From Planctomycetota bacterium (GTDB lineage: Bacteria > Planctomycetota > UBA1135), in contig JALUVI010000083.1 in NCBI GenBank assembly GCA_027020785.1, forward strand, positions 1 to 49,342: a stretch of 49,342 bases of DNA, read 5' to 3'. The position numbers and the translations under genes were made by a program. Shown piece by piece: positions 4,106 through 49,342 of the stretch; position 1 is the first letter of the stretch, and every line of letters starts with the position of its first letter. The notes below the pieces were generated by a model. It made no database searches, had not been told where the DNA came from, and worked only from the letters and a program-made list of their open reading frames with translations.

Positions 4106-5287
4106 CTATCGGGTCTGGGCCTTCTGGAGGGCGCGGACGTAGAGGGCGATCGCCCAGCGGTCCCGCGGCGGGATCTGGCCGCCGTAGGACGGCATGGTGT
4201 TCTTGCCGTTGGCGATCGTGTGCACGATCTCTCCGATCGGCATCGCGCGGATGCGGTCGTCGGTCAGGTCGGTCGGCTGGACCCAGGTCGCTTGGCCGAG
4301 GGCGGCGAGGTCACGGGCGCGGACCGCGACCGGACCTTCGCCCCTGCCGTCCATCCCGTGGCACACCGCACAGTAGATGTCGAAGCGCTTCTCGCCGCGG
4401 TCCAGCAGGGCGCGGTCCACGGTCACCTCCGCCGGCGGACTCTCCAGGAAGCGATCGCCGTCCATCCCCTGCCGCACGTCGTCGCCGAAGGCCAACGTGC
4501 CGCGGGCAACGGTACCGGCGGGCTGCGGTCGGCTCATCCGGCCGTCCGGGAACAAGGGCGTGAAGCCCTGCGGCCGGAACTTGGCCTGATCGTCCATGTC
4601 GGGAACCAGGTTCACCGGCGGCTTCGTCGTGGTGCCGTGCCGGGCCTCGAACATCATCGCCGGCGGCACGATCGCGGCCGCCGAGAGGACGACCAGTCCG
4701 TAGACCAGCTTCCGCGGCATCCCACCCGACTCGGCCGGTTCCTCGACCACGTCCACGGAAACGGCGCCGAGCCCGCGGAGGAACTCCACCGTCCGCTCGG
4801 GATGGAACTGCGGGTCGCGCGCCTCGATGGCGACGAAGAACCGGTCGTCGGTCACCCGAGCGAACTCCGGCTTGCGGAACAGCGGATGGAACCACTTCGG
4901 CAAGCCGTTGATGATCCACATCGCGAAGAACGCGGAGAACGCCGAGAACAGGACCATCATCTCGAAGGTCACCGGGATGAAGGCCGGCCACGAGAACAGC
5001 GGCTTGCCGCTGATGTCGAACGGATAGTCGATGCCGTTCATCCAGTACTGCATCGCCAGCGCAGCCGCCACGCCGGTCGCCCCGAACGCCAGGACGATCC
5101 ATGGCAGGCGGGTGGGCCGGATGCCCATCGCCTTGTCCAGACCGTGGACGGGGAACGGCGTATGGCAGTCCCAGCGCTGGAAACCCGCCTTGCGGACCTT
5201 CTGGGCCGCCGCCATCAGGGAGTCCACGTCGGCGAACTCGGCGTACGCTCCGTAGAACTGCTTCTTGCCTTGTGTCTGTTGGTTCAT
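4106..5287 (-). CDS. Fused ActD-ActE subunit of alternative complex III (DUF3341 plus monohaem cytochrome c)
   Basis: This 393-residue protein joins two ACIII subunits. The first half (to about 185) is ActD/DUF3341, with the hairpin of two membrane helices near 61-83 and 104-127 and the motif TFEMMVLFSAF. A third helix (about 194-210) leads to an ActE-like cytochrome c domain with CAVCH at about 306-310 and an axial methionine near 365 (NTMPSYGG). In Rhodothermus-type operons these are separate genes. The ATG at 5287 is preferred over an in-frame GTG at 5296, because a GGGAGG Shine-Dalgarno lies at the right distance for the ATG but touches the GTG. It lies 13 bp after actC. Confidence 0.9.
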   Translation of the reverse strand: MNQQTQGKKQFYGAYAEFADVDSLMAAAQKVRKAGFQRWDCHTPFPVHGLDKAMGIRPTRLPWIVLAFGATGVAAALAMQYWMNGIDYPFDISGKPLFSWPAFIPVTFEMMVLFSAFSAFFAMWIINGLPKWFHPLFRKPEFARVTDDRFFVAIEARDPQFHPERTVEFLRGLGAVSVDVVEEPAESGGMPRKLVYGLVVLSAAAIVPPAMMFEARHGTTTKPPVNLVPDMDDQAKFRPQGFTPLFPDGRMSRPQPAGTVARGTLAFGDDVRQGMDGDRFLESPPAEVTVDRALLDRGEKRFDIYCAVCHGMDGRGEGPVAVRARDLAALGQATWVQPTDLTDDRIRAMPIGEIVHTIANGKNTMPSYGGQIPPRDRWAIALYVRALQKAQTR

Positions 5288-5300
5288 CGAAGGCACCTCC

Positions 5301-6717
5301 CTAGTGGTCCTCCGGGTGGACGTGCGGATGAGCCTCGGGCATCACGTTCTTCACCTCCGAGATCGCGACCTGTGGCAGGTAGCGGCAGAACAACAGGAAC
5401 AGGGTGAAGAAGAGGCCGAAGCTGCCCAAGAGAGTCAGGACGTCCACGATCGTCGGACTGAAGTAGCCCCAGCTCGACGGGAGGAAGTCCCGACTCAAGG
5501 ACGTCACCGTGATGACGAAGCGCTCGAACCACATGCCGATGTTCACGAAGATGGAGATGATGAACACCAACACCATGTTGGTCCGAATGCGCTTGGACCA
5601 GAACAGCTGTGGCGAGATCACGTTGCAGCTGACCATGATCAGGTAGGCCCACCAGTACGGGCCGGTGGCCCGGTTGATGAAGGTGAAGCCCTCGTAGCGG
5701 TTGCCGCTGTACCAAGCCATGAAGAACTCCATGGCGTAGGCGTAGCCCACCATCGTGCCAGTGGCCAGGATGACCCGGCACATCAGGTCCACGTGACGCT
5801 CGGTGATCAGGTGCTCGAGCTTGAACACCTTCCGCGCCGGGATGGCCAGCGAGAGCACCATAGCGAACCCCGAGAAGATGGCTCCAGCCACGAAGTAGGG
5901 CGGGAAGATGGTGGTGTGCCAACCGGGGAGCTGGGCTACGGCGAAGTCGAAGGACACCACCGAGTGCACCGACAGCACCAGCGGAGTCGCCAGTGCCGCA
6001 AGGATCAAGTAGGCCTTCTCGTAGCGGTGCCAGTGCCGGTTGGAGCCATTCCAGCCCAGGGCGAACAGGCCGTACCAGAATCGCCGGGCCTTGGACACCG
6101 CTCGGTCGCGCAGCGTCGCCAGGTCGGGGACCAGGCCCATGTACCAGAACAGCAGCGACACCGAGAAGTAGGTGCTCACCGCGAACACGTCCCACAGCAG
6201 CGGGCTGCGGAAGTTCGGCCACATGGCCATCTGGTTGGGAATCGGGAACACCCAGTAGATGACCCAGATCCGGCCGACGTGGATCGCCGGGAACATGCCG
6301 GCGCAGATGACCGCGAAGATGGTCATGGCCTCGGCGAAACGGTTGATGCCGGTCCGCCATCCCTGCCGCAACAGGAACAGGATGGCCGAGATCAGGGTTC
6401 CGGCGTGACCGATACCGACCCAGAACACGAAGTTCACGATGGGCCAGCCCCAGGCCACCGGCTGGTTGTTGCCCCAGACCCCGACGCCAGTCGCGATCAA
6501 ATACACGATCATGGTGCCCAGGGTGCCGAGGAGGGCGACCGCGATCGCGAACAGGACGTACCAGATCTTGGGGGGGCGGGGGAGTTCGGCGACCCGACTG
6601 ACGATCTCGGTGACCGCTTTGATGTCGGTGTTCCCCGTCACCAGAGGCGGCGGGTACAGCCCTTCCCGTTCAGCGCGCTCGATCCGTTCGGATTCGAGCG
6701 CCGGAGCGACGCATTCT

Positions 6718-6725
<8 letters not shown>
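5301..6725 (-). CDS. actC: Alternative complex III subunit ActC (NrfD-like integral membrane subunit)
   Basis: ActC is the NrfD/DMSO-reductase-anchor-like subunit that holds a quinol-binding site and contacts the ActB iron-sulphur subunit. The 474-residue protein has about ten membrane helices. It carries the conserved GIGHAGT segment at residues 104-110, the [18 protein letters not shown] stretch after it, and [10 protein letters not shown]. The ATG at 6725 lies inside the end of actB, giving an 8-base overlap, which implies translational coupling. The identification is firm from motifs and from the order A-B-C-DE-F. Confidence 0.95.
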
Positions 6726-9785
<3,060 letters not shown>

Positions 9786-21881: not shown

Positions 21882-23534
21882 TTAGTCGCCGATGCCGCGC
21901 GTTTCCTCTCCGTGGAGGACGGCGCGTACCTCGCCCGCCAGCACGCCCCCCACCTCGCCCTCCTCGTCCACGATGCGGTGGGCGCCGGCGCGCTCGAAGG
22001 CGCCGCGGTGCAGACGGTAGCGCGAGCGCACCACCACCGTCGCATCCGGGGCCATCCGCCGCACGAGCTCCAGGACCCGCAGCGCCACCGAGGTCGCCGG
22101 CAGCGTGATCACGACCAGCCGCGCACGCGGCGCTCCGGCCTCCTCGAGGACCTCCGGGCTGGTCGCGTCGCCTACGACGACCCGGAAGCCGTACTCGGCG
22201 GCGTCGCGGACCACCTCGGGGTTGAGCTCGACCACCACCCCGCGGACGTCGCCGGCCAGCGAGGAGACGACGCGGCGCCCCGCCGGGCCGAAACCGATCA
22301 CCACCACGTCAGGCGGCTCGGAAGGAGCGCCGGCGTTCCACCCCGCATCGGCGGCGGCGGGGCCCTCGCCGAAGCGGTCCTGGATCCGCGCCGCGAGCCG
22401 CGGCGCCAGGGCGATGACGTACGGCGCGGCGAGAAGGGAGAGGAGCACGGTCGAGGTCAGGGCCTGGTGGACCGGGTCCGACAGGAGGCCGCCGCGTTGT
22501 CCGATCTCGCCGATCACGAAGGCGAACTCACCGATCTGGGCGAGGAGCAGGCCGGTCGCGACGCCGAGCGCGTGGGAGCCGCCGAGCATGCGCACCAGCG
22601 CCCAGACGACGAAGGTCTTGCCGGCGAGGACGAGGGCGGTGAGCCCGAGGAGCAGCGGGAGGTGGGCGCCGATCCACGACGGATCGGCGGCCATGCCGGC
22701 GGCGGCGAAGAAGAGGACCAGCAGGAGGTCGCGGATCGAGGCGACGTCGGCGCGCACCTGCACCGCGAAGGGGGATGCGGCGAGGGTCATGCCGGCCACG
22801 AAGGCGCCGAGGGCGGGCGAGGTGCCGACCGCCTGGGCGCCCCACGCCGAGCCCAGGGCGACCAGGACGGCCAGGAGCGTGGCGAGCTCACGATTGCGCT
22901 GCAGGGCGCGGCTGCGCAGGAAGGCGACGCCGAGCGTGCGCAACAGCGTCCACAGGCCCACCAGGAAGAGGGCTGCGACACCGAGGGTGCGGGCGGCGGC
23001 GACCGCGAACGAGGCCGCGTCGCCGCCCTCGGCCAGCAGCGTGACGAGCAGGGCCAGCGGCACGACCGCGGCGTCCTGGACGAGGAGGACGGCGACCGCG
23101 TTGCGCCCGGCGACGGCATCCTCCTCGCCGCGGTCGAGGAGGACGCGCAGGACGAGCGCGGTGCTCGACAAGGCGAGCATGGCCCCGACCGTGAGGGCCG
23201 TCGGCCAGGAGCTTCCGACCGCGCGGGCGGCGAGGGCGGCGAGGGCCAGGGTGGCCGCGACCTGGAGCGCGCCGAGCCGGAAGCGGACGCGACCGTAGTC
23301 GCGCAGGCGCGTCCAGGAGAACTCGAGGCCCAGGCCGAAGAGCAGGGCGGCGACGCCGAGCTCGCCGAGGGCGTGGATGTCCTCCTCGGCGTGCACCATG
23401 CCGAAGCCGCCGGGGCCGATCAGCATGCCCGCCAGGAGGTAACCGACCAGCGGGCTCTGCCCGATGCGGGCGAAGGCGGCGCCCAGCACGAGGGCGGCGC
23501 CGCCGAGGAAGAGGAGCTCGAGGAGGAAGGTCAC
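21882..23534 (-). CDS. KefB/CPA2-family cation:proton antiporter with RCK/TrkA-N domain
   Basis: This is a monovalent cation (K+ or Na+)/H+ antiporter. The 550-residue protein has about twelve membrane helices to about residue 385, including the typical segments VGYLLAGMLIGPGGFGMV, ELGVAALLFGLGLEFSW and LLLAQIGEFAFVIGEI. A cytoplasmic Rossmann domain follows with VVVIGFGPAGRRVV, which in this family senses NAD(H) or glutathione conjugates and gates transport. The start is a GTG at 23534 that overlaps the endonuclease V stop (GTGA). The open frame continues much further upstream, but that part covers the nuclease gene. Substrate ion is not determined. Confidence 0.92.
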   Translation of the reverse strand: MTFLLELLFLGGAALVLGAAFARIGQSPLVGYLLAGMLIGPGGFGMVHAEEDIHALGELGVAALLFGLGLEFSWTRLRDYGRVRFRLGALQVAATLALAALAARAVGSSWPTALTVGAMLALSSTALVLRVLLDRGEEDAVAGRNAVAVLLVQDAAVVPLALLVTLLAEGGDAASFAVAAARTLGVAALFLVGLWTLLRTLGVAFLRSRALQRNRELATLLAVLVALGSAWGAQAVGTSPALGAFVAGMTLAASPFAVQVRADVASIRDLLLVLFFAAAGMAADPSWIGAHLPLLLGLTALVLAGKTFVVWALVRMLGGSHALGVATGLLLAQIGEFAFVIGEIGQRGGLLSDPVHQALTSTVLLSLLAAPYVIALAPRLAARIQDRFGEGPAAADAGWNAGAPSEPPDVVVIGFGPAGRRVVSSLAGDVRGVVVELNPEVVRDAAEYGFRVVVGDATSPEVLEEAGAPRARLVVITLPATSVALRVLELVRRMAPDATVVVRSRYRLHRGAFERAGAHRIVDEEGEVGGVLAGEVRAVLHGEETRGIGD

Positions 23535-24259
23535 GGATTGCGCCGGCGCGGGCCGCCGGACTCGGACGACGGGTCGGTGCGCCGGGAGCCGGCCTTGGAC
23601 AGCCGGTCGGCGCGGCGGGTGGGTTCCGGCAGACGGTAACCGCCGCCGGAGCGCAGCACCCACTCCACGGCGCGCCGGCGGTCCACGCGATGGCCCGGCG
23701 AGACCCAGAGCGGCTTCACGCGGTCGCGGGTGCGCAGGAGCGTGCCCAGCACGCGACGGCGGTCGGCCGTGTCGCGGATGGGCGTGCGCGCGCCGCGTTC
23801 CGGCCCGGGCTCGGCGGCGACGCCGCAGAGCCGCGACTTGGCGACCCCGATGGCGGGTCGATCCAACCACAGCCCGAGGTGGGCGGCGATCCCCATGCCG
23901 CGGGGATGCGCGACTCCGGCGCCGTCGAAGAGGAGCAGGTCGGGTTCGGTGCGCAGCTCGCGCCAGGCTGCGAGCACGGCCGGGCCCTCGCGGAAGGTCA
24001 GCAGGCCGGGAACGTAGGGGAAGGCGAGCGGAAGCTCGGCCACGACCTCTTCGAGCGTCTCCAACGTCCGCGCGTCCAGGACGACGACGGCGGCGCGCGC
24101 GGTGTCGCCCCCGGGAAAGGCGACGTCCACCCCGGCGACGCGGCGGATGGGCCCGCGCGGCCGCCACTCGGCCACCAGCCGCGGACGCAGCGCGTCCTGG
24201 ATGCGCGCCGCCTCCCGCGGCGTCACGTCCCACGGGTGGAGGGGGTCGGGAAGCTCCAC
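23531..24259 (-). CDS. nfi: Endonuclease V (deoxyinosine 3'-endonuclease)
   Basis: Endonuclease V cuts DNA one base 3' of deaminated bases such as inosine. The 242-residue protein aligns along its length with the family. The metal-binding acidic residues are at about D45 (VAGVDVAFPGG), E91 (YVPGLLTFREGPALL-like stretch) and D112 (LLLFDGAGVAHPRG). GVAKSRLCG and the late WVSPGHRVDRRRAVEWVL are also present. A basic tail (RRADRLSKAG) ends it. The GTG at 24259 fits the family length and leads the nfi-antiporter-recQ unit. CATCCT sits six bases before this GTG and could be a -10 of a leaderless transcript. Confidence 0.93.
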   Translation of the reverse strand: MELPDPLHPWDVTPREAARIQDALRPRLVAEWRPRGPIRRVAGVDVAFPGGDTARAAVVVLDARTLETLEEVVAELPLAFPYVPGLLTFREGPAVLAAWRELRTEPDLLLFDGAGVAHPRGMGIAAHLGLWLDRPAIGVAKSRLCGVAAEPGPERGARTPIRDTADRRRVLGTLLRTRDRVKPLWVSPGHRVDRRRAVEWVLRSGGGYRLPEPTRRADRLSKAGSRRTDPSSESGGPRRRNP

Positions 24260-44870: not shown

Positions 44871-45182
44871 CTATCGCCCGGAAGCGTCGTCCTCGATCCG
44901 CAGCCACTCGCGCCGGAGTTCGTCGTCGCTCGCGATGTCGCCCTCCTGCAGCATCCAAGCCAGGGTGGTCAGGTTGGCGAAGAGCACGTGCGCCCCCGAC
45001 CGATTCCTCACCCACAGGCAAGCCCCCTGCCCCTCGATCCAGTCCACCCCTTCCGGCCCGTTCGAGGGCCCGTAGTGTTCACGAATCACCTCGAGGACGT
45101 GCCTCTCGCCCTCGGTCAGCTCCCGAGGCACTCCGTCCCTCATGCGGTCATCACCGGCATCACCCAAGACAATCCTCCACAT
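44871..45182 (-). CDS. Small orphan protein downstream of the DUF2075 helicase
   Basis: I do not recognise this 103-residue acidic protein. It has no signal peptide or membrane segment, and its centre reads VDWIEGQGACLWVRNRSGAHVL. The ATG at 45182 overlaps the helicase gene by 23 bases and has GAGGAG about ten bases upstream. An in-frame ATG at 45143 would give a 90-residue form starting after the helicase stop. It probably belongs to the same transcription unit as the nuclease-like and helicase genes. It could also be a chance frame; the ribosome binding site and position favour a real gene. Confidence 0.55.
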   Translation of the reverse strand: MWRIVLGDAGDDRMRDGVPRELTEGERHVLEVIREHYGPSNGPEGVDWIEGQGACLWVRNRSGAHVLFANLTTLAWMLQEGDIASDDELRREWLRIEDDASGR

Positions 45183-46473
45183 GCCGCCGCGTCTCCTCGT
45201 CCTCGAACCAGACGTGGACGCTCTTCAGACCCCGCGTGAGCAGGATGCGATAGGCCTGCGCGAGGCCGCGACGCAGCGCGAGCCAGGCAGCGCTCCCAGG
45301 CCCGTCCTTGCGGGCTCTCCTCAAGGTCTTCATGAGCCCAGACTCGTGGACCTGCTCCAAGTCCACGTCCCAGCCTCCATCGCGCCATCGCAGGTCGCCC
45401 AGCCAAAGCACGCCCACGTGGTCGAAATCGAACCCTCGCACCGCGTAGGGGCATCCGACTTCACAAAGCGGGTCGTCATGCATGGGCACACCGTCAGGAG
45501 GCTGGACGAACAAAGTGTAGTCCTGATTGTTTGGAGCGTGATTCCATGGCTTGGCCCAAAGGCGCTCCCCATCTTCGTCCTCGCAGACGAAGACGAAGTC
45601 CTGCGCCTCGGGCGGAAGGGAATGTGGGCTCCCCACCTTGTAGGTCTTGCCCTTGCGGGCGAATCCGGCAAGCAGCCTTGCACTCCCGCCGCTCTGCATC
45701 CGCTGCCGCAACCGAGCCTCCAAGTCGCATGGGCTGCTGGCGATCCCAAAGTCCAAGACTCGTAACCATTTTTCAGCAATCGGACGCAGCTCGTCTGGAG
45801 CCCTTCCCTCCAACAGGCCCTCCAACCAAGTCACGAACTCGGTGGAACCGGCGCATCGGAATTGGGCCCCCGACAAGTCGATGGGCTCCACGAACTCTGC
45901 GCCAAGCTCTTTCGCCCAACGCCGCAAGTCGTCGATGGTCGTGTTTTCACGGTCCCGGAAGCCCTGGCCGGGGTCCAGGAGGAAGACGGCGACACGCGAA
46001 GACCGGATGACATGGTAACCGAGTGGTCCCAGGCCCGTGGCGAAACCAAACTGCCCACGCCCCTCGGGTTTCTCAGGGTCGATGAGAGCATGCGCCTCGT
46101 CCACGATAGACACGAGGTACTCGTCATCACGCGCTCCACTGCGGAATACCTTGCCCGTGCTCTTCAGGAGTTGGAGATTCTCGCGCCACCGGATCGGCGC
46201 ACCGAACACGTCCTCACCGAAGGTCTTGCGTATCAGCGAGAACTCCTGCGTGGTGAGCGGTACGTAGCTCGTCGCCTTCTTGACCACGCCACGCGCTGCC
46301 ACGCTCTTCCCGACCTTGCGAAACAGCTCCTTCCAGTTGGACTCCTGACTTGCGGACGTAGTCGTCAGAACGACGGCTCCGTCGGGGAGCCGTTCGTCCC
46401 TCACAAGCTCAGCCCAGATACGGGCCGCGAGCACCGACTTGCCCGACCCCGGCGGCCCCTTGATGACGATCAC
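45160..46473 (-). CDS. DUF2075/Schlafen group 3-like DNA/RNA helicase domain protein
   Basis: The 437-residue protein is an ATPase of the DUF2075 type. It has Walker A GPPGSGKS at 6-13, Walker B IVDEAHAL and the family marks FRCAGSTEFVTWLEG, YAVRGFDFDHVGVLWLGDLRW and the C-terminal ILLTRGLKSVHVWFED. It begins almost directly at the P loop, so it lacks the N-terminal part that such proteins usually have; that part is encoded by the gene before it. The GTG at 46473 overlaps the upstream TGA by four bases (GTGA). GC content looks lower than in flanking genes, a sign of transfer. A role in phage defence is possible but unproven. Confidence 0.85.
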   Translation of the reverse strand: MIVIKGPPGSGKSVLAARIWAELVRDERLPDGAVVLTTTSASQESNWKELFRKVGKSVAARGVVKKATSYVPLTTQEFSLIRKTFGEDVFGAPIRWRENLQLLKSTGKVFRSGARDDEYLVSIVDEAHALIDPEKPEGRGQFGFATGLGPLGYHVIRSSRVAVFLLDPGQGFRDRENTTIDDLRRWAKELGAEFVEPIDLSGAQFRCAGSTEFVTWLEGLLEGRAPDELRPIAEKWLRVLDFGIASSPCDLEARLRQRMQSGGSARLLAGFARKGKTYKVGSPHSLPPEAQDFVFVCEDEDGERLWAKPWNHAPNNQDYTLFVQPPDGVPMHDDPLCEVGCPYAVRGFDFDHVGVLWLGDLRWRDGGWDVDLEQVHESGLMKTLRRARKDGPGSAAWLALRRGLAQAYRILLTRGLKSVHVWFEDEETRRHVEDCLG

Positions 46474-47288
46474 CTTCTTTCCTGCGGTGACGGGCTCAGC
46501 GAAAAGGCACGGTCGAGCGCGAAGCGAACGATGGCCATGGCGCGGCGCTGGTGGTCCAGGAGGACGAACGGGCTCTCCTCAGGGTGCAGGATCTGCTCGC
46601 CGATCTGCCGGACGAAGCCGCGGTCCTGGCGGTAGCTCCCCCGAACGAAAGCTTGGGCGAAGCCCTCGTCTCCACGAACCAGACGTCGCTCCAGCCAGAC
46701 CGGCAACGCCTCCTCGACCTTCTCGGGAATCACCGAAAGGCAGGGATAATCACGCACGAGACGATCGTTGGGCGGCTCGAGGTAGGCATGGAAGAACCCG
46801 CCCCTGGTGAACAGCACGCAGCCTGCGACTCCCGCGTTCCGCTCCTGGACGACCGAATGGAATCGCCGGCAATACTCCACGTAGCCACGCACTTGGTCAG
46901 AAGGATGGAGCTCCTCCCTTCCATGTCGCACGATGAGGCCTTCCCGCGGGCCCGGCCGGTCGCCCCAGGTCGCCCAGTGCTTGAGCTCGACGACGACGAC
47001 CGATGGCCCTTCGTCTCCCTCGCCGAGCAGGACCGCGTCGCACCAGGCCGAGGCCGCGGGTAGCTGATACTCGAGGGCCAGGTGCTCCGGTCCGGCCAGC
47101 AGCACGTGGACGCCGCCGAGGTCGCTCGCGGACAGGGTCCGCGCCAGGGCCGGCAGGGAGGAACGCCATGCTTCCTCCTCCTCGCGCCCCCCACGCCCCG
47201 TCCGTTCCTTCAATTCGCGCAGCAAGCCGCGCAAGTCGTGCTCGACGCGGTCGCGCAACTCGTCCAGGGTGATCAGGAGCGGCTCCAT
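46470..47288 (-). CDS. Nuclease-like N-terminal part of a split DUF2075 protein
   Basis: The 272-residue product has a region that fits a PD-(D/E)XK-like nuclease core: D84 (CDAVLLGEGDEG) followed by E101-x-K103 (VVVVELKHW). It ends with QRRAMAIVRFALDRAF, which is what usually comes just before the P loop in DUF2075 proteins. The frame then changes to the helicase gene by -1. The two may be one gene broken by a frame change or a pair coupled by the GTGA overlap. The ATG at 47288 is chosen; a GTG at 47306 overlaps the mutS stop but touches the GGGGAGG ribosome binding site. Confidence 0.7.
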   Translation of the reverse strand: MEPLLITLDELRDRVEHDLRGLLRELKERTGRGGREEEEAWRSSLPALARTLSASDLGGVHVLLAGPEHLALEYQLPAASAWCDAVLLGEGDEGPSVVVVELKHWATWGDRPGPREGLIVRHGREELHPSDQVRGYVEYCRRFHSVVQERNAGVAGCVLFTRGGFFHAYLEPPNDRLVRDYPCLSVIPEKVEEALPVWLERRLVRGDEGFAQAFVRGSYRQDRGFVRQIGEQILHPEESPFVLLDHQRRAMAIVRFALDRAFSLSPSPQERR

Positions 47289-47302
47289 CGCCGCCCATTG
47301 GA

Positions 47303-49342
47303 TCACCTCCCCTCTTCTCGTGCATCCAGCACCCGGAGGACCTCGGCGAGGAGGTCCCAGGCGGCGCGGGGGGTGGTCTGGTCGAGGTCGAGGGTGCGGA
47401 GGCGGGTGAGGAGGTCGGGGGCCTCGGCCTCGAGGAGGTCGAAGAGGGTCGGCTGGCTGGGCTCGGGGGCCGGGGGCGGTTCGGAGGCGGACGGGGCGGC
47501 GAGGACGCGGCGGGAGAGGTCCTCCTCCTCGCGCTCCAGGCGGGCCAGGACCTCGCGGGCTCGGGCCAGGACATCGGCGGGCAGGCCGGCGAGTTGGGCC
47601 ACGTGGATGCCGTAGGAGCGGTCGGTGCCGCCCTCCTCGATGCGGTGCAGGAAGACGATCTCGTGGCCGTGCTCGCGCACCGCGACGTTCAGGTTCACGG
47701 CGCTGGGCAGCGCGTCGGCGAGGTCGGTGAGCTGGTGGTAGTGGGTCGCGAAGAGCGTCCGCGCCTGGGTCCGGTCATGCAGGTGCTCGCACACCGACCA
47801 CGCGATGGCCAGCCCGTCGAAGGTGCTGGTGCCGCGCCCCACCTCGTCGAGCAGGACCAGGCTCCGCGCGGTCGCATGCCGCAGGATCTCAGCGGTCTCG
47901 AGCATCTCGACCATGAAGGTCGAGCGCCCGCGCGCGATGTCGTCCCCCCCGCCGAGCCGGGTGAACACGCGGTCCACCGGATGCAGTCGCGCCGACGACG
48001 CCGGCACGAAGGAGCCGGCCTGCGCCAGCAGCACCACCAGCGCGGTCTGGCGCAGGTAGGTGGACTTGCCGCTCATGTTCGGCCCGGTCAGCACCGCCAG
48101 CCGCCGATCCGGTCCGAGGAGGGTGTCGTTCGGCACGAAGGGCTCGGCGCCGAGGGTCTGCTCGACCACCGGGTGGCGACCGTCGCGGACCTCGAGGACG
48201 CCGCAGCCCTCACCCCCGGGCGGGTCGTCGGGGTCGAGGAGCTCGGGGCGCACCCAGTCGCGCTCGGCGGCGAGCCGCGCCAGGCCTTGGAGGACGTCGA
48301 GCTCGGCCAGCGCCCGCGCGGTCCGGAGCACGCGCCCCACCTCGGCCTCGGCGGCCGTGCGCAGCTCCTCGAACACCGCGACCTCGAGCTCGCGGGCCCG
48401 CTCCTCGGCGCCGAGCACCTTCTGCTCGTACTCCTTCAGCTCGGGCGTGATGAAGCGCTCGGCGTTCTTCAGCGACTGGCGCCGCGCCCACTCGACCGGC
48501 ACCGCGTCCGGCGCCGAGGCGAGCTGGGCGCGCGACACCTCGAGGTAGTAGCCGAAGACGCGGTTGAAGCCGACCTTGACCGCGAGCCCGGTGCGCTCCT
48601 GCTCGCGGCGCTCGAGCTCGACCAGCCACTCCTTGCCGCCGCGGGCCAGCGCGCGCAGCTCGTCGAGCTCGGCCGAGAAGCCGTCGCGGACGATGCCTCC
48701 CTCGGTCCACGCCAGCGGCGGCGTCTCGACGAGGGTCTGGACGATGCGCTCGCGCAGCCCCTCGCAGGGGTCGAGCGCGTCGCGGAGCGCGGCCAGGCGG
48801 TCCGGCAGGCCGCCGCCGAGCCCGCCGCTCGCGGCCTCGTCGAGGAGGGCCCGCATCGCCGGCACCCGCCCCAGCGCCTTGGCCAGCGCGGCCAGGTCGC
48901 GCGGATGGGCGCGCCCGCCGGCCAGCCGCCCGCCGAGCCGCTCGAGGTCGCCGAGGCCGTCGAGCTCGCCGGCCAGCCCGCGCCGCAGCGCCGGGTCGTC
49001 CACCAGCCGGCCCACCGCGTCGTGCCGCTCGCGGATGGCGTCGGGGTCGAGCAGCGGCTCGAGCAGCCACTCGCGCAGCAGCCGCGCCCCCATCGGGGTG
49101 GCGGTGCGGTCCACCGCCCACAGGAGCGTGCCCTCGCGCCCGCCGTCGCGTTGGTTGGCGACGACCTCGAGCGTGCGCAGGGTGGTCGGGTCGAGCCCGA
49201 GGGCGCGCTGCTCGCGGTCCACCCGCAGGTCGCGCACCTGGGACAGGGCGTGCCGCTGGGTCTCGCGCAGGAACTCCATCAGCCCGCCGCAGGCGGCGAG
49301 CGCGGCGTCGAGGTCGGCGACCCCGAAGGCGTCGAGGGTGGC
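47303..49342 (-). CDS. mutS: DNA mismatch repair protein MutS (5' part beyond the window)
   Basis: MutS recognises mismatches and starts repair. The visible 679 codons cover the end of the connector domain, the lever and clamp domains, and the ATPase. Marks are Walker A GPNMSGKS, TRLGGGDDIARGRSTFMVEM, LLDEVGRGTSTFDGLA, and ATHYHQL. The clamp shows VKVGFNRVFGYYLEVSR and ERFITPELKEYE, and the C terminus has SQPTLFDLLEAEAPDLL. The N-terminal mismatch-binding domain lies outside the window. The frame is open through 49342. Its TGA is followed immediately by the nuclease-like gene, which fits a shared transcript. Confidence 0.96.
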   Translation of the reverse strand, partial: ATLDAFGVADLDAALAACGGLMEFLRETQRHALSQVRDLRVDREQRALGLDPTTLRTLEVVANQRDGGREGTLLWAVDRTATPMGARLLREWLLEPLLDPDAIRERHDAVGRLVDDPALRRGLAGELDGLGDLERLGGRLAGGRAHPRDLAALAKALGRVPAMRALLDEAASGGLGGGLPDRLAALRDALDPCEGLRERIVQTLVETPPLAWTEGGIVRDGFSAELDELRALARGGKEWLVELERREQERTGLAVKVGFNRVFGYYLEVSRAQLASAPDAVPVEWARRQSLKNAERFITPELKEYEQKVLGAEERARELEVAVFEELRTAAEAEVGRVLRTARALAELDVLQGLARLAAERDWVRPELLDPDDPPGGEGCGVLEVRDGRHPVVEQTLGAEPFVPNDTLLGPDRRLAVLTGPNMSGKSTYLRQTALVVLLAQAGSFVPASSARLHPVDRVFTRLGGGDDIARGRSTFMVEMLETAEILRHATARSLVLLDEVGRGTSTFDGLAIAWSVCEHLHDRTQARTLFATHYHQLTDLADALPSAVNLNVAVREHGHEIVFLHRIEEGGTDRSYGIHVAQLAGLPADVLARAREVLARLEREEEDLSRRVLAAPSASEPPPAPEPSQPTLFDLLEAEAPDLLTRLRTLDLDQTTPRAAWDLLAEVLRVLDAREEGR

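Follow-up and report, generated by a model that had tools for sequence, protein, structure and literature searches.

Proteins that combine a nuclease with a helicase in one chain are among the described and candidate phage defences of bacteria. Nhi (nuclease-helicase immunity) is a nuclease-helicase defence protein for which the trigger is a phage single-stranded DNA-binding protein (PMC10732053). PDC-S41, a phage-defence candidate in PADLOC, is a single protein (model length 657) with a nuclease-like part and a DUF2075 helicase. The corresponding helicase family in Pfam is PF09848 (Schlafen group 3 DNA/RNA helicase domain, formerly DUF2075). Here we analyze a gene of this plan in a Planctomycetota bacterium, located on a 49,342-nucleotide stretch of DNA (the window) that covers positions 1 to 49,342 of contig JALUVI010000083.1 (assembly GCA_027020785.1). 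The gene contains a frame change between its two parts, its counterpart is a single intact gene in every relative not cut by a contig end, and its motifs are otherwise kept. The gene is very probably of a familiar nuclease-helicase type and damaged by an ordinary frame lesion, which would be a recent inactivating indel or an error in the consensus.

The locus and its two reading frames

The minus strand of the window carries an upstream open reading frame (ORF) of 278 aa (47306-46470) and a downstream ORF of 437 aa counted from a GTG (46473-45160). The downstream frame is open already from 46578 and is -1 relative to the nuclease-like frame, with which it shares 109 bases of overlap. As called, the two ORFs overlap by the four bases GTGA, the GTG at 46473-46471 lying on the TGA at 46472-46470, and an AGGA (46483-46480) stands six bases 5' of the GTG. 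A run of four T at 46505-46502 is the sole homopolymer of at least 4 between 46600 and 46460, and lies 2.8 kb from the contig end rather than at its edge. The ORF coordinates, the strand, the -1 relation and the T run given in the original prediction were all confirmed by re-reading of the ORFs and by a codon model, and the AGGA and the GTGA overlap are present as it claimed. Its start of the nuclease-like frame at GTG 47306 is possible, but ATG 47288 (MEPLLITLDEL) aligns with the starts of the relatives and is a better fit to the conserved start of the family. The features are as follows.

46470 to 47288, minus strand: N-terminal nuclease-like half, frame 0; start at ATG 47288 favoured over the possible GTG 47306; stops out of frame at TGA 46472-46470.
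45160 to 46503, minus strand: C-terminal Schlafen-group-3 / DUF2075 helicase half, -1 frame; assigned by its PF09848 match and its identity to intact relatives.
46502 to 46505, minus strand: run of four T, site of the frame change, in a variable inter-domain linker; placed by the scan for nearby homopolymers and an ab initio frame change at 46504.
46471 to 46473, minus strand: GTG, proposed as a coupled start; read from the family alignment as a nearly invariant valine codon (alignment column 322), in the strand that precedes the P loop.

The site of the frame change was also located ab initio, with a codon-usage model that covers both strands, includes frameshift states, uses no homology and was trained on 321 kb of sequence from the genome. 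Blind to the site, the model placed the change at 46504. For the codons after 46503 the sum is about +1.6 in the -1 frame versus about -6.8 in frame 0, which reads TCA, AGA and AGG there. The same kind of model recovered 106 of 120 planted one-base losses. The gene itself has a poor codon fit (per codon, about 0.25 in the first half and 0.11 in the second).

Two further observations concern the window. A 103-aa ORF on the minus strand (window 44871-45182) shares 23 bases with the helicase ORF; it gave no family match and has no relative near the other copies of the nuclease-helicase gene. At 22400-23600 the window has a strong AT skew (0.33-0.49) and a positive GC skew over approximately 1.2 kb, that is, a purine-rich plus strand.

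Both halves and their single-gene relatives

The helicase half matches PF09848 over the whole profile (1-354) with an E-value of 3.9e-42 and 145.2 bits against a cut-off of 24. GPPGSGKS (Walker A), VDEAH (Walker B) and AQFRC (QFR motif), which are conserved in the family alignment, are kept together with RGFDFD and YRILLTRG, and the half is 36-50% identical to the five closest intact relatives. The N-terminal half is 42-49% identical to the matching part of five intact relatives, and E37, W41, S44, E73, Y74, P77, D84, E101, K103, H128-P129, Q132 and Y136 are invariant; across 11 sequences this holds for D84, E101-x-K103, H128-P129 and Q132. The D...E-x-K pattern of PD-(D/E)XK / NERD nucleases is thus found in this half, and in the predicted structure (mean pLDDT 79) the D and the E-x-K fall on two adjoining strands (85-91 and 94-103). 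Database searches fall short of proving this: the best match in Pfam is NERD (E 0.17, below threshold), the best in a fold search of the PDB is the restriction enzyme MspJI (E 0.12, not significant), and a sequence-profile search against solved structures returned nothing beyond generic P-loop matches. From the conserved residues and the model we regard the N-terminal part as putatively nuclease-like, with D and E-x-K predicted on adjoining strands as in PD-(D/E)XK nucleases.

The original prediction proposed that a single protein of about 709 residues is broken here by the frame change, and the relatives bear this out. Searches with both halves found the full-length fusions: in 15 of 15 relatives that are uncut by contig ends, both parts lie in one uninterrupted open frame of 646-835 codons. 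Rejoined, the protein would have about 709 aa, in line with the 704-737 aa of the close relatives. Intact genes of the same phylum have 742 (G078), 751 (G144) and 741 (G263) codons and share 47-50% identity over the helicase part; the intact gene on a Verrucomicrobia contig (L006) has 737 codons (45% identity) and that on a Bacteroidales contig (L007) 742 codons (36% identity). Ten more distant homologues (L003, L004, L005, L009, L010 and L013-L017) are also in a single frame. One copy (G413) is an apparent exception to the single-gene rule, but both of its pieces run off contig ends. The same split, which the original prediction suggested seeking in close relatives, was not seen in any uncut copy. 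A search of 392 genomes with the nuclease half recovered these genes again, and no half on its own.

Within the phylum the gene is patchy, occurring in a handful of genomes, and it is absent from all other searched genomes of the host's family. No relative was found on viral contigs, and only remote relatives on plasmids. Several of the other copies have neighbours or extensions of their own. Upstream of their intact nuclease-helicase, both L006 (365-2338) and L007 (480-2468) carry a TPR-repeat gene whose product contains a HELTH (HExxH-like) motif (tblastn 1e-44), hinting at a conserved operon; the L006 TPR-repeat gene is itself split into two frames. On L007 the gene directly after the nuclease-helicase (5041-6747) encodes another superfamily-1 helicase, assigned by Pfam to AAA_11/AAA_12. 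A conserved operon partner was rejected for the window, since neither of these two neighbours of the L007 copy is matched there or near the copies in G078, G144 and G263. The distant relative L003 (910-3351) has a Peptidase S24-like domain (1.1e-5) behind its DUF2075 helicase.

Origin of the frame change

Besides a broken gene, the original prediction considered a natural split, in which two proteins coupled at the GTGA jointly form a two-component nuclease-helicase, possibly made in both split and fused form. In its favour are a break that falls in the linker and leaves both domains complete, the GTG on the TGA and the AGGA upstream. However, when 18,224 one-base losses were simulated at random in the genome's own long genes, 46% of them produced a four-base overlap between a start codon and the first stop out of frame. 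In general, then, a start-on-stop overlap at a frame change should be read with caution, given that, at this genome's composition, roughly every second random one-base loss creates one and so mimics coupling. Because of this frequency, and because the GTG is a nearly invariant valine codon, the GTGA overlap does not count as evidence of coupling between the two frames. With the valine conserved and the codons from 46503 to the GTG fitting the -1 frame, the GTG needs no explanation as a start. The linker varies in length across the family, a stop in it is absent from all relatives compared, and the stop/start overlap is not conserved. Translational coupling was rejected on these grounds, as an overlap that is unconserved in relatives and expected by chance. 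Isolated frame transitions were classed as pseudogene or error in a published survey (PMC3711429). Hence, we find a natural split of this kind very unlikely, and it is highly improbable that an ancestral single-chain nuclease-helicase recently became two separately translated, coupled and co-acting proteins in this lineage. If the split were natural, the nuclease and helicase of the family could act as separate proteins; here, the one point in positive support of it is that the break falls in the linker.

Programmed -1 frameshifting, by which one mRNA would yield both a short nuclease-like product and the full-length protein, would fit the -1 direction and the T run at the site. It was rejected, since no slippery heptamer (X_XXY_YYZ) occurs in frame between 46640 and 46472, and the TTT codon at the T run re-pairs perfectly at +1, the wrong direction, and not at -1, where a C precedes the run. 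The run is also short for transcriptional slippage, and the site is conserved in no relative. Its chance of being correct is, in our judgement, minimal.

The reading that we prefer is a single frame lesion, with the conserved family columns kept in both halves. The gene would encode a single-chain nuclease-helicase, with an N-terminal D...E-x-K part of PD-(D/E)XK type followed by a Schlafen-group-3/DUF2075 superfamily-1 helicase, and would be an accessory gene of a PDC-S41-like candidate phage defence kind. In this assembly one isolated frame change falls in the linker between the domains. Translation as written would halt 11 codons past the frame change and leave a nuclease-like domain without the helicase, which would be made from the split gene poorly or not at all; we infer a loss of function of the split gene. 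Several points sit less easily with this reading. A break exactly in the linker with both domains whole is a coincidence of approximately 4-6% by length (our own estimate), an AGGA stands six bases before the GTG, no second lesion or advanced decay is seen, and, at four T, the run is a short one for a homopolymer error.

What caused the lesion depends in part on the quality of the assembly, a fragmented draft of 270 contigs and 90.75% completeness. We took 536 kb of it as stretches, inspected the flags of the codon model by hand and sorted them by eye, which left about five intragenic frame changes: the T run described here, probably one at L047:3725, two within one flavoprotein-like gene on a 3.9-kb contig of the same genome (L079:655-912), and probably one at a C6 run (L075:11140). 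Most of the remaining strong flags mark points where two unrelated genes adjoin tightly. A grossly indel-rich assembly was rejected at this rate. The assembly is therefore neither clean nor indel-ridden, and mutation and error are both plausible.

If the consensus sequence contains an error close to the T run, the gene would be intact in the organism. The fragmented draft and its few other intragenic frame changes would fit such an error, as would the otherwise kept motifs and the missing second lesion, and a survey found many frameshift pseudogenes in assemblies to be assembly errors (PMC11017572). Against it stand the short run, its location inside the contig and an assembly that is not error-rich; we place it a little short of an even chance. 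Alternatively, a real frame-breaking mutation would mean that the sampled population has recently lost an accessory gene of defence type. The low overall frame-lesion rate, the absence of the gene from the rest of the host's family and its patchiness point this way, as does the poor codon fit, which would be expected of a laterally acquired accessory gene, although other marks of decay are missing. For this mutation, too, we would say that the balance falls just under evens.

Comparison with known and candidate defence systems

The helicase half does not differ from the PF09848 domain itself, but this Pfam family does not cover the N-terminal part found in the window gene. For Nhi and AbiO, neither half in the window matches the PADLOC profiles at E 0.01, and L003, the distant one-gene relative, matches both over the helicase region (3.6e-13 and 4.5e-13). 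PDC-S41 shares the one-gene plan of nuclease-like part and DUF2075 helicase with the intact relatives, which match its profile at 1e-8 to 1.9e-19 (best L003, 1.9e-19; closest relatives of the window gene 1e-8 to 1e-11). Of the two halves in the window, only the helicase matches it (3.6e-4), and the nuclease half has no match; in contrast to the single ORF of PDC-S41, the window gene is in two frames. Judged by this family resemblance, the gene probably has an antiviral role, as proposed for its single-protein counterpart PDC-S41.
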